From: Planctomycetota bacterium
GTDB lineage: Bacteria; Planctomycetota; UBA11346
Direction of reading: 5' to 3'
NCBI GenBank assembly: GCA_013696105.1
Contig: JACCZE010000230.1
Span: 1-58,472, forward strand
DNA: 58,472 bases
Shown here piece after piece: positions 32,543 to 37,184 of the stretch (position 1 is the stretch's first letter; the number at the start of each line of letters is the position of its first letter). Position numbers and translations under genes: made by a program. Under the pieces are notes generated by a model that did no database searches, had not been told where the DNA came from, and saw only the letters and a program-made list of their open reading frames with translations.

Positions 32543-34207
32543 ATGCGTACCCATGGTCCGACCGCAGAGGGCGTCACTCCCGCCAGCACCGAGCTCGGCG
32601 TGGTCGCCCAGCTCCTGAAACGGCTCGACAAGCTCAACGCCATCGGCATCGCCCTGTCGTCCGAGAAGGACCCCATGCGCCTGGTCGAGCAGATCCTGCT
32701 CGGCGCGAAGGACATCACCAATGCGGACGGTGGCACGGTCTATTCCGTGACCGGCGACGGCACGCTGCGCTTCGAGATGCTGCGCAACGATACCCTCGGC
32801 CTGGTGATGGGCGGTTCGAGCGGCGTGACCATCCCGTACAAGCCGCTGTCGCTGCGCCGCGAGGACGGTTCCGCCAACCACGCCTCGGTGGTCGCGCATG
32901 CGGTGGTCACCGGCGACACGGTGAACATCCCGGACGCTTACCACGCCGACGGCTTCGACTTCGCCGGCACCCGGGCGTTCGACGCCAAGACCGGTTACCG
33001 TTCGACGTCGATGCTGACGGTGCCGATGCGCAACCACGAGGGCGAGATCACCGGTGTGCTGCAGCTCTTGAATGCGCGCACCGACGATGGCACCGTCTGC
33101 CCTTTTTCCGAGTCCGAGCAGCGCCTGGTCGAAAGCCTGGCCTCGCAGGCCGCGACCGCGCTGACCAAGCACGATCTGATCGAGGGCATGCGCAAGCTCT
33201 TCGAGTCGTTCGTCCAGCTCATCGCCACCGCGATCGACGAGAAGTCGCCGTACACCGGCGGCCACTGCCGCCGCGTCCCGGAACTGACCATGATGCTCGC
33301 CGAAGCGGCGGCGCGGGTGAAGGCCGGTCCGCTGGCAGGCTTCAGCATGTCCGAAGGCGACCGCTACGAACTGCACATCGCTTCGTGGATCCACGACTGC
33401 GGGAAGATCACCACGCCCGAATACGTCATGGATAAGGCGACCAAGCTGCAGACCATCTACGATCGCATCGGCCTGATCGAGACGCGCTTCGAGATCATCA
33501 GGCGCGACCTCGAGATCGCATCGCTGCGCGCGCTCGCCACCGCGCCGGCGGACGGACGCGCCGCGATCGAGGCCGACCTGCGCACCGCGCTCGCCGCCCT
33601 GGACGAGGATCTGGCGTTCATCCGCCGCGCCAATACCGGCGGCGAATTCATGAAGCCCGAGGATCAGGAACGCATCCGCCGCGTGGCGATGCGCACGTGG
33701 CGGACCCCGGAAGGGGACCTGCAGCCGCTGCTTACCGACAACGAGGTGCGCAACCTCACCATCGCCAAGGGCACGTTGCTTCCCGAGGAGCGCGCGATCA
33801 TCAACCACCACATGACCGCGACCATCAAGATGCTCGAATCGCTGCCGTATCCCAAGCACCTGCGTCGCGTGCCCGAGTTCGCCGGCGGCCACCACGAGCG
33901 CATGGACGGCAAGGGCTACCCCAAGGGCCTGACGCGCGATCAGATGTCGGTGCAGGCGCGGGTGATGGGCATCGCCGACATCTTCGAGGCGCTGACCGCC
34001 GACGATCGCCCCTACAAGAAGGCCATGAGCCTGAGCATGGCGCTGGGCATCCTCGGTCGCATGGCGGGCGAAGGCCACATCGATCCCGACCTGTTCGACG
34101 TCTTCATCAGCGAAGGCGTGTACCTCGATTACGCGAAGAAGCACCTCAGTCCGGAGCAGATGGATGCGGTCGATCTCGCGAAGATCCCGAATTATCGCAA
34201 GAGTTAG
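32543..34207 (+). CDS. GAF and HD-GYP domain protein, probable cyclic-di-GMP phosphodiesterase
   Basis: 554 aa, no membrane segment. Residues ~45-205 form a GAF sensory domain (GGTVYSV, GYRSTSMLTVPM, VLQLLNAR). The HD-GYP domain begins with SPYTGGHCRRV and WIHDCGKITTPEYV; the GYP motif is HHERMDGKGYP and GIADIFEALTADDRPYK follows. About 100 extra residues lie between the HD motif and the following HH, a known insertion subtype. TATACT, a good -10 hexamer, sits 8 bases ahead of the ATG, so the leader may be very short. Confidence 0.92.
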   Translation: MRTHGPTAEGVTPASTELGVVAQLLKRLDKLNAIGIALSSEKDPMRLVEQILLGAKDITNADGGTVYSVTGDGTLRFEMLRNDTLGLVMGGSSGVTIPYKPLSLRREDGSANHASVVAHAVVTGDTVNIPDAYHADGFDFAGTRAFDAKTGYRSTSMLTVPMRNHEGEITGVLQLLNARTDDGTVCPFSESEQRLVESLASQAATALTKHDLIEGMRKLFESFVQLIATAIDEKSPYTGGHCRRVPELTMMLAEAAARVKAGPLAGFSMSEGDRYELHIASWIHDCGKITTPEYVMDKATKLQTIYDRIGLIETRFEIIRRDLEIASLRALATAPADGRAAIEADLRTALAALDEDLAFIRRANTGGEFMKPEDQERIRRVAMRTWRTPEGDLQPLLTDNEVRNLTIAKGTLLPEERAIINHHMTATIKMLESLPYPKHLRRVPEFAGGHHERMDGKGYPKGLTRDQMSVQARVMGIADIFEALTADDRPYKKAMSLSMALGILGRMAGEGHIDPDLFDVFISEGVYLDYAKKHLSPEQMDAVDLAKIPNYRKS

Positions 34208-34281: not shown

Positions 34282-34409
34282 CTAGTAGAACCTGGGTCGG
34301 GTGGCGCAACCTGCTGCAGGAAAGTATATTGCCTCTGCAGTCATAGGGAGTCGCGAGGCCCGTAGACATTTCGATGCAAGAAAACACCGCCCACAGGGGA
34401 GACATAGGC

Positions 34410-37184
34410 ATGGACGCCCTCACGGAGGAGATCGATGGGGATCTGCTGCAGAGCTTCGTGGACGGCGAAGCCACCGAGCGGGAACACGCTTTCGCCGGAC
34501 TCGTGCACCGTCATGGCGCCATGGTGGTCGCGGTCGCCCGCAGACATGTCGGCCCGGCCGATGCCGATGACGTCGCGCAGGCGGCCTTCCTCGTGCTCGC
34601 GCGCAAGGCGTCGGCGCTGCGTTCGCATCCCTCGCTCGCGGGGTGGCTGCACCGCGTCGCCCGCAACATCGCCCGCCGGCATCGCGATGCGACCGGGGTG
34701 CGCTCGCGGCGCGAACGTCAGGCGGTGGTCGTGAAGGCCGCAGACGAGCCCGTCGCCTGGCGAGATGACCTCGATGAGGCGCTCGCGCACCTGCCCGAGC
34801 GCTATCGGACGCCATTGGTGCTGCATTACCTCGAGGGCTGCAGCCAGGAGGACGTGGCGCGGACCCTCGATGTGCCCGCGGGCACGCTCGCATCGCTGCT
34901 GAGTCGCGGCCGCGATCTGCTGCGCACCAACCTCGCACGGCGAGGCGTGCGCACGAGCGCGCTCGCGATCCTCGGCGCGGCCGCCCACGACGCCGCTGCT
35001 GCTCAGATACCCGCGTTCGCGCAGCCGCTCGCGGTCGCGATCGTCCGCTCCAAGCCCTTGTCCCCCGGAATCACCTCGCTCGCCAACGGAGAAATCACGA
35101 CCATGGCTCTGCACAACCTGTCGCTCACCTCTGGCATCGCGGCGTCTCTCGTCGCCATCCTCGCCCTCGGTCTATCGTTCGGCCGCGCCTCGGCGCAGGA
35201 GCCGGTGACGCCACCCAAGCCCGCGCCCAAGCCGGCCGCGACCTCCCCGGCCAAGGTCGGCTTCGTGCCCCACATCAAGGTGCTGTCGGACAAGGTCCCC
35301 GACGTGTCCTCGATTGATGCGTGGAAGAAGTCGTACATCACCGAGGGGATGACCGACGAGCAGAAGGGCATGGCGTGCTGGAAGAGCGTGTGGACCTACC
35401 AATACCAGGATGGTCCGCCGTGCGAATTCCTCCAGCACGACGACATCGTGTACGATGCGATCAAGGTCTTCAACGTCTACGGCTACGCCATGTGTGGAAA
35501 CGCCGCGGCGCACATGATGTCGCTCGCACGCAACGTCGGACTCGAAGCGCGCAGCTACGGCATCAACGCGCATAGCGTCGGCGAGCTCAAGTGGGGCGGC
35601 TCCTGGCACCTGCTCGATCCGTCGCTGATCAACTACTTCCCCAAGGCCGACGGCCAGCCCGCGAGCGTGGCCGAGATGACCGCCGGCGTGCAGGAATGGC
35701 TGAAGGCGCATCCCGAATGCATGGACGAGAAGGGCCGCGCCCGGGGCGACAAGATCAAGGAACTGCACGCGCAGGGCGGTTGGATGGGTTGGAAGCAGGG
35801 CCCCGAGATCCTCTCGCGATGCCCGACCTGGGGTGACCGTGGGTGGTACCCGGCGAAGACCCACGGCTGGTACTCGACCATGCAGGAATACGACGGCGGC
35901 GGCGGAGGCACGGGCAACACCCAGTTCCTCTACGAGTACGGAGCGTCCGAAGGGTATCAGGTCGACATCCGTCTGCGTCCGGGCGAGAAGTTGGTGCGCA
36001 ACTGGTCCAACAAGGGCCTGCACGTCAACATGGGCAACGCCAATTGGGGCGCCCCGGGTTGCCTGAACATGACCGTCGATCAGCTGGTCTACAGCCGGGC
36101 CAATGGCGACCTCACCAACGGCCGCGTCGGAAACGGTACCCACGACTACGTCGTTCCGCTCGCCGATGGCACCTTCAAGGCCGGCGCCTGGCAGATGGAC
36201 AACCTCGCCTGCACCGCCGACGACAAGGCCAAGCCGGCGCTCCATGCCAAGAATGCCGCTGATCCCGCGTCTCTGGTGATCCGCATGCCCACCAGCTACG
36301 TCTATCTCACCGGCACCGCCAAGGCTACCGCGGTGGTCGGCAAGGACGGCTCGATCGCAGTCCAGTTCAGCGACAACAACGGTCTGGATTGGAAGGACGT
36401 TTCGACCATCAACCAATCCGGCGAGACCAGCATCGACCTCGCGCCCTTCGCGGTTCGGCGGTACGATTACCTGCTCAAGCTCACCCTGAAGGGCGCGGGC
36501 ACCGGTTTGGATGCACTCACCATCAGCCACGACGTGCAGCATTCGCAGCGCGCCCTCCCGGCGCTGGCCGAGGGTGATAACGCCATCAGCTTCAGCGCGG
36601 GCATGCCGGAACAGACCATCACGGCGGAAGCTGCGACGACCGATGGCCACGAGAAGTACCAGGTCACGCCCAAGGATTTCCACGCGGTCGCCACCGGCTT
36701 GTCGAACTACCGCAAGGTCGAAGGCAAGACCGGCGATCTGACCGTGCCGATCTCGACCCCGGCCGACATGGTCCGACTGCGTTTCGGCGGCTTCTATCGC
36801 AACTGGAGCGACCAGGATTCGTGGGAATACCACGTGTCGTTCGACGATGGCAAGACCTTCAAGAAGGTCTGCGACGCACCCAAGCAGATGGCGGGCTGCA
36901 CCAAATACATCACGGTCAGCGACATCCCCACGGGCACGCGCAAGGCGCTGGTACGCTACGTCGGCAACTCCGCCGCCGCGACCATGCTCTGGAGCTTCCG
37001 CATCGATGCGGATTACGTCGCTCCGAACGCTGGCTTCGCACCGGTCAAGGTGACCTATACGTGGGACGAGAGCGGGCAGGAGAAGACTGACGTCCACATC
37101 GCGACCAAGGCGGAGGACACCTACAAGATCACCTGCGGCGCGAAGACGACGATGAAGTCGATCGCCCTCGAGTTGGCTCCGTAG
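34410..37184 (+). CDS. ECF sigma factor fused through a membrane anchor to an extracytoplasmic transglutaminase-like domain
   Basis: 924 aa in one continuous frame. Residues ~20-90 are sigma region 2 (ADADDVAQAAFLVLARKA, GWLHRVARNIARRH) and ~120-175 are region 4 (LPERYRTPLVLHYLEGCSQEDVA). A linker leads to one hydrophobic segment (~238-262) and a Pro/Ala-rich stretch. The exported part starts near 280 and has a transglutaminase-type triad: C362 in MCGNAAAH, H388 in NAHSVG, D403 in LLDPSL. Beta-rich domains fill 480-924. Planctomycete ECF factors with such anchored extensions are known, but a transglutaminase-like partner is one I do not recognise. GGGGAG lies 8-14 bases before the ATG at 34410. 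Confidence 0.85.
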   Translation: MDALTEEIDGDLLQSFVDGEATEREHAFAGLVHRHGAMVVAVARRHVGPADADDVAQAAFLVLARKASALRSHPSLAGWLHRVARNIARRHRDATGVRSRRERQAVVVKAADEPVAWRDDLDEALAHLPERYRTPLVLHYLEGCSQEDVARTLDVPAGTLASLLSRGRDLLRTNLARRGVRTSALAILGAAAHDAAAAQIPAFAQPLAVAIVRSKPLSPGITSLANGEITTMALHNLSLTSGIAASLVAILALGLSFGRASAQEPVTPPKPAPKPAATSPAKVGFVPHIKVLSDKVPDVSSIDAWKKSYITEGMTDEQKGMACWKSVWTYQYQDGPPCEFLQHDDIVYDAIKVFNVYGYAMCGNAAAHMMSLARNVGLEARSYGINAHSVGELKWGGSWHLLDPSLINYFPKADGQPASVAEMTAGVQEWLKAHPECMDEKGRARGDKIKELHAQGGWMGWKQGPEILSRCPTWGDRGWYPAKTHGWYSTMQEYDGGGGGTGNTQFLYEYGASEGYQVDIRLRPGEKLVRNWSNKGLHVNMGNANWGAPGCLNMTVDQLVYSRANGDLTNGRVGNGTHDYVVPLADGTFKAGAWQMDNLACTADDKAKPALHAKNAADPASLVIRMPTSYVYLTGTAKATAVVGKDGSIAVQFSDNNGLDWKDVSTINQSGETSIDLAPFAVRRYDYLLKLTLKGAGTGLDALTISHDVQHSQRALPALAEGDNAISFSAGMPEQTITAEAATTDGHEKYQVTPKDFHAVATGLSNYRKVEGKTGDLTVPISTPADMVRLRFGGFYRNWSDQDSWEYHVSFDDGKTFKKVCDAPKQMAGCTKYITVSDIPTGTRKALVRYVGNSAAATMLWSFRIDADYVAPNAGFAPVKVTYTWDESGQEKTDVHIATKAEDTYKITCGAKTTMKSIALELAP
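35088..35105 (+). promoter_or_regulatory. Internal Shine-Dalgarno and ATG in the sigma-transglutaminase gene
   Basis: GGAGAA (35088-35093) sits 9 bases before the in-frame ATG at 35103 (Met232). From there the product would begin with a signal-peptide-like segment ending in RASAQ, giving a separate exported transglutaminase-like protein of about 693 aa. The equivalent Met is also common in fused planctomycete sigma factors, so this may be coincidental. Confidence 0.45.

Follow-up and report, generated by a model that had tools for sequence, protein, structure and literature searches.

Extracytoplasmic function (ECF) sigma factors that carry a membrane segment and an exported C-terminal part in the same polypeptide form a class that is already known (PMC8999054, PMC5826349) and is large in planctomycetes, and a 2021 review considered the characterization of ECF C-terminal extensions to have only begun (PMC8103513). 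Planctomycetes encode dozens of candidate ECF sigma factors per genome, many of them with long exported extensions. Here, we describe one such ECF-membrane-X gene (X being the exported part), located at 34410-37184 on the forward strand of a 58,472 nt stretch of Planctomycetota DNA (assembly GCA_013696105.1, contig JACCZE010000230.1; hereafter the window). The exported part of its product is a putative transglutaminase-like enzyme, and the sequence in front of its membrane segment contains a candidate internal translation start that is conserved in the ECF-membrane-X class.

Several described systems resemble this gene in part. In ECF52 (SCO4117) of Streptomyces, an ECF sigma factor, a membrane segment and an exported carbohydrate-binding part likewise share one polypeptide, and proteolytic release has been proposed; unlike the window protein, members of ECF52, a group described as found exclusively in Actinobacteria, have an anti-sigma domain of the zinc-finger type (PMC5826349, PMC8999054). 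The partner in the window protein is transglutaminase-like instead, the gene has a candidate internal start site, and the zinc finger that characterizes ECF52, ECF53 and ECF48, sought between the sigma part and the membrane segment, gave no Pfam match at E ≤ 1. In IutY of Pseudomonas putida, a single membrane segment tethers an N-terminal ECF sigma factor to a periplasmic domain, and this one-piece sigma/anti-sigma protein was shown to be cut and freed by Prc and RseP (PMC5411451). The periplasmic domain of IutY is, however, an anti-sigma domain of the FecR type that serves cell-surface signalling and is driven by a TonB receptor (PMC5411451), and no Pfam match to a FecR-type domain was found in the window protein. 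In Clostridium thermocellum, outside sensor modules of RsgI proteins, some of them enzymes such as GH10, control an inside sigma factor by stepwise proteolysis; RsgI is a separate anti-sigma factor for SigI, cut by RseP (PMC12203970), whereas sigma factor and putative sensor form one chain in the window protein. ECF57 of the Planctomycetes also has a long C-terminal extension, described as WD40-like (PMC8999054); the window protein combines a transglutaminase core with reelin/BNR-like modules and gave no Pfam match to a WD40 domain. Finally, in two-polypeptide phage endolysins an internal start codon yields a second protein from the same frame (PMC9430671), although these are lytic phage enzymes rather than transcription factors, and their internal start has been proven experimentally (PMC9430671).

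A candidate internal start site in front of the membrane segment

The window gene is a single uninterrupted frame of 924 amino acids (aa), which rules out both a frameshift error and a pair of genes separated by a stop codon. The start at 34410 is preceded, 8 nt upstream, by the Shine-Dalgarno sequence GGGGAG (34396-34401); an alternative in-frame ATG at 34374, adding 12 residues, is possible, but it is 34410 that has the Shine-Dalgarno sequence. Sigma-70 region 2 (residues 31-92, 34500-34685; Pfam Sigma70_r2, PF04542, E 1.5e-10) and region 4 (residues 119-169, 34764-34916; Sigma70_r4_2, PF08281, E 6.5e-15) both score over cut-off, and NCBIfam assigns the protein to the sigma70-ECF superfamily (TIGR02937, 66.4 bits against a cut-off of 42.9). 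With regions 2 and 4 and without region 3, the protein is an ECF (group 4 sigma-70) factor, and the closest relatives of its sigma part are ECF factors of further genomes within the same family and phylum. A linker follows (residues 173-231, 34926-35102), and tblastn matches to other ECF-membrane-X proteins extend across it as far as residues 240-290. In many genomes the linker aligns together with a single hydrophobic segment downstream of region 4, the C-terminal parts being different, which places the window gene in the ECF-membrane-X class.

The original prediction had read the hydrophobic segment plainly as an anchor. A hydrophobic segment is indeed present, with the most hydrophobic 19-residue span at residues 237-255, but its reading as a simple anchor seems incomplete. 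By inspection, the segment (residues 232-262, 35103-35195) starts MALHNLSLTSGIAASLVAILALGLSFGRASA↓Q and looks like a cleavable signal peptide ending ASA↓Q, a site that is conserved in a sister species. Directly ahead lie a Shine-Dalgarno sequence, GGAG (35088-35091), and, 11 nt downstream of it, an in-frame ATG (35103-35105; M232), which we propose as a second start. The DNA upstream of the segment reads AACGGAGAAATCACGACCATG in the window and AACGGAGAACTGAAGACCATG in the sister species. Codons 223-228 are identical between the two, against only 63.5% identical codons among conserved residues overall. Such a run is not rare by itself, as ten runs of at least five identical codons occur between the window gene and its sister, and we therefore tested the whole ECF-membrane-X class.

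Among 77 distinct ECF-membrane-X frames, 57 have a methionine near the membrane segment, and methionine is twice as frequent at this position as elsewhere. A Shine-Dalgarno motif precedes that methionine in 44 of the 57, compared with 19.3 ± 2.7 when synonymous codons were shuffled within each gene (200 shuffles, the best of which reached 26). The signal is present separately in three families (8/12, 17/22 and 18/20), in each exceeding every shuffle. The position of the motif is tied to the ATG (standard deviation 2.1 nt) and not to the membrane segment (standard deviation 11 nt), and only 1 of 23 out-of-frame ATGs has the motif. The controls behaved accordingly: real starts of the stand-alone enzymes have the motif in 24 of 34 cases, internal membrane segments of polytopic proteins in 2 of 60 (under their null of 7.1), and serine/threonine kinases with a membrane segment in none of the 7 usable cases. 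Lysine or arginine occurs among the first ten residues from the methionine in 31 of 36 exact sites, as in signal peptides.

Conservation of the methionine as a mere protein motif was ruled out. The glycine preceding it is coded GGA in 35 of 44 genes, far over the background of 19.7%, and GGAG is not tied to one codon phase (25 cases in one, 10 in a second and 1 in the third). In the class, an in-frame Shine-Dalgarno sequence at proper spacing is thus conserved beyond the amino-acid constraint. Loci with the conserved motif and ATG comprise the window gene (35088-35105) and L002, L009, L016, L028, L089, L093, L111-L113, L116, L119, L120 and L122, among others; L002, the other transglutaminase-like fusion of the window genome, has its own internal GGAG-ATG. 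We consider this strong evidence for selection on an internal start site, at which translation may begin.

The transglutaminase-like partner and its family

The part of the protein beyond the signal-peptide-like segment contains a domain at about residues 286-435 (35265-35714), delimited from relatives and a structure model. On the window protein alone, Pfam Transglut_core matches residues 348-404 below cut-off (E=0.057). The assignment, weak by single-sequence Pfam, is upheld by the Pfam matches of relatives, by conservation of the catalytic triad and by structure prediction. Transglut_core matches 10 of 53 family relatives at E ≤ 0.01 (best 3e-4). The proposed triad, Cys362 (35493-35495), His388 (35571-35573) and Asp403 (35616-35618), is conserved in 50, 50 and all 53 of these relatives, respectively, and the three members without the cysteine also lack the histidine. 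In an AlphaFold2 model of residues 286-924 (mean predicted local distance difference test score 94.7, predicted template modelling score 0.93), the cysteine sits at the start of a helix, followed by the histidine and the aspartate, each on a strand. Foldseek comparison of the domain model (first 150 residues) with the PDB returned TGase (4xz7), TglA (9crn), TgpA and LapG-type structures at the top; transglutaminase-domain matches had a probability of about 1 with E-values of only 2e-3 to 6e-2, the TGases being the best hits (probability 1, E 2e-3 to 3e-3). A family profile run against PDB sequences returned nothing useful. On this evidence the domain belongs to the transglutaminase-like superfamily, with a Cys-His-Asp triad on a predicted papain/transglutaminase core, and is a putative enzyme. 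A family branch formed by L055, L061 and L073 (= L023) lacks the cysteine and histidine and retains the aspartate; its members may bind without catalysis.

The large beta-rich modules noted originally (residues about 620-924, 36267-37181) are of the reelin-subrepeat/BNR type and resemble glycan-binding sandwiches. Pfam found Reelin_subrepeat-B in 9 and BNR in 6 of the same 53 relatives, and the structure matches (E 1e-7 to 1e-4, with low template modelling scores) comprised reelin repeats, GH101 and a glycan-binding protein. The observation of an ECF factor, a membrane segment and an exported domain with an intact triad in one polypeptide is thereby confirmed.

Most of the family is secreted. 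A scan of named genomes located 59 family loci in Planctomycetota, Armatimonadota, Abditibacteriota, Verrucomicrobiota and Myxococcota, and one additional remote match in a Chloroflexi metagenome-assembled genome; inspection of upstream frames indicated that these are secreted stand-alone proteins, except for a truncated orthologue and a few loci cut at a contig end. Genes neighbouring the stand-alone members are mixed (sulfatases, FecR, hydrolases), with no single pathway among them. One member, L235 (G130 contig 688), is preceded in frame by an apparent right-handed beta helix, in a frame of 1382 aa. The window genome encodes four further members, one fused to an ECF factor (L002) and three stand-alone with signal peptides, and the sister species about ten. 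The latter include an orthologue of the window gene (L009) that keeps the linker and everything downstream, with 78% identity from residue 222 and the triad intact.

Repeated pairing with ECF signalling

The second fusion, L002 (1435-4218 of G000 contig 344), encodes 927 aa. The enzyme parts of the two fusions lie on different branches, that of the window gene with the stand-alone protein L003 and that of L002 with L017, a stand-alone protein of the sister species to which it is 73% identical. The ECF parts diverge even more. A single ancestral fusion was rejected by approximately unbiased (AU) tests of one clade, both for the ECF parts (p-AU 1.5e-37) and for the enzyme parts (p-AU 0.0015, 25 rows); the same test on 60 enzyme parts did not reject one clade (p-AU 0.076). 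The trees indicate that the ECF-transglutaminase fusion arose twice independently in the genus of the window, and this repetition argues for a functional link between ECF factors and the transglutaminase-like enzyme.

The same pairing recurs in operons. Four family members carry an additional STN-like domain behind the signal peptide (L039, PF07660, E=0.044, below cut-off; L046, L056 and L076, by inspection), and all four have an ECF sigma gene directly upstream. L039, L046 and L056 also have, directly upstream, a gene whose FecR domain is significant, and the ECF-FecR order was also read from the frames of L076. The operons span L039 1945-5929, L046 2061-5926, L056 1786-5914 and L076 2028-5962. 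Their order is that of FecI-FecR-FecA with the transglutaminase-like protein in the place of the TonB receptor FecA; the window gene differs in being fused and without FecR. L004 and L024/L048 likewise have ECF genes in the vicinity of family members. In L022 (1495-4122, reverse strand) and L024 (sister genome contig 493), family members form a tandem cluster, one of them STN-like, with an ECF gene alongside. Fusions and operons together show that the association of this family with ECF signalling is recurrent.

Absence of the fusion from relatives would have counted against the original prediction, and nearly all relatives of the enzyme are in fact unfused; yet there are the two independent fusions and the ECF-FecR operons. 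Of 392 genomes sampled from the phylum, 18 encode the family and the transglutaminase fusion occurs only in the window genome, the sister orthologue being cut before the sigma half. The ECF-membrane-X architecture, by contrast, is general in planctomycetes, so that anchored ECF fusions are as familiar as had been stated and the special feature of the window gene is its partner only. The window genome alone has at least five other ECF fusions with different exported parts, several of which were assigned by eye. In L008/L103 the ECF factor is fused to a right-handed beta helix, and L102 looks alike; L089 appears by eye to have a cyclase-like part, with no Pfam match beyond the sigma domains; L093 has secretin/FecR_C-like repeats. 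L091 and L094 are among further ECF-membrane-X proteins, a set that also includes LamG-like parts.

Directly upstream of the window gene and on the same strand lies a gene for a GAF-HD protein (32543-34207; HD_5, HD-GYP-like), with no evidence linking the two. Long frames on the opposite strand of the window gene are as expected in GC-rich DNA, and none was taken as a gene.

Proposed mechanism and alternatives

These observations lead us to a reading, which we put at about an even chance, that one gene gives rise to a tethered sigma-sensor and a free exported enzyme, two products from one frame. An ECF-linker-membrane-X sigma factor would have acquired its exported part from the secreted transglutaminase-like family. 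The full-length product would have its sigma regions 2 and 4 tethered at the cytoplasmic membrane face and its enzyme module exported to act as a sensor, and the product begun at ATG 35103 would be the enzyme module alone, exported by an ordinary signal peptide like the stand-alone paralogues. The sigma domain could be freed when a substrate is bound or processed outside, or when the tether is cut, perhaps by signal peptidase at ASA↓Q or another site-1 protease and then by a site-2 protease of the RseP type; homologues of site-2 proteases are present in the window genome. RseP has been reported to remove signal peptides as well (PMC8144685), and the stub left by a signal-peptidase cut at ASA↓Q would fit the size that RseP accepts (size filtering, PMC5411451). 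The freed sigma factor would activate transcription of its own gene and of related degradative genes, while the free enzyme would compete with the tethered sensor for the same substrate. Release of the sigma factor by cysteine chemistry, as proposed originally, could be one form of this. The original interpretation as a whole is partly supported. It is equally plausible, in our estimate, that ECF-membrane-X genes in general encode a tethered sigma factor with an exported module and, through the conserved internal ribosome-binding site, the module alone; one domain in two forms would then serve as both sensor and effector, the two vying for one substrate.

Several observations weigh against a tethered sensor with a second, free product. 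No methionine is found at the relevant place in 20 of the 77 ECF-membrane-X genes, and the Shine-Dalgarno spacing of 11 nt in the window gene is at the long end of the range. The signal-peptidase site was judged by eye, and an immediate cut at ASA↓Q would stop the outside module from signalling to the sigma factor. The contig of the sister species begins at the equivalent of residue 222, so that the sigma half of L009 lies outside it.

One alternative is a simple anchored sensor in one piece, with the full-length protein as the sole product; the sequence resembling a Shine-Dalgarno site would then act at the codon level or as a pausing signal that aids membrane insertion. The intact frame, the linker and hydrophobic segment that align across the ECF class, and the precedents of ECF52 and IutY (PMC5826349, PMC5411451) are all consistent with this. 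It nevertheless seems to us fairly unlikely, given that the site keeps its distance to the ATG rather than to the membrane segment, that the motif is missing at the internal membrane segments of other proteins, kinases included, and that its rate equals that of real starts. Alternatively, the frame might merely co-express two working proteins, a cytoplasmic or quickly freed sigma factor and a secreted enzyme whose exported domain senses nothing. An internal start with a canonical signal peptide would suit such an arrangement, as would the secreted stand-alone paralogues and the fact that both fused enzyme parts have their nearest relatives among stand-alone proteins. But neither fusion has gained a stop codon between its halves, and the STN-like/FecR context of relatives points to surface signalling, so we regard co-expression alone as unlikely.

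That the fusion is recent, neutral and functionless, or an assembly error, is very improbable and largely refuted. It is confined to one genus and comes from a draft metagenome assembly of 481 contigs, but the sister species retains 78% identity with an intact triad and the window genome contains a second, independent fusion. A chimeric assembly is likewise unlikely in view of conservation in the sister species up to the contig edge and the second fusion in the same genome. We therefore favour, with the reservations given above, a tethered sigma-sensor accompanied by its free enzyme.

In the literature searched, we found no report of a transglutaminase-like partner, as the original prediction had supposed, nor of a double origin of such a fusion, of ECF-FecR-STN-like operons or of a conserved internal start. 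Within that limit these features are new, above all the conserved internal start, whereas ECF-membrane-X fusions as such are already known. That members of one family occur in ECF fusions as well as downstream of ECF-FecR pairs ties an exported enzyme to surface signalling. If the proposed reading is true, the conserved internal start is a direct and testable clue to how the ECF-membrane-X class works: each gene may give a regulator and its free partner, a second product that would escape annotation pipelines.
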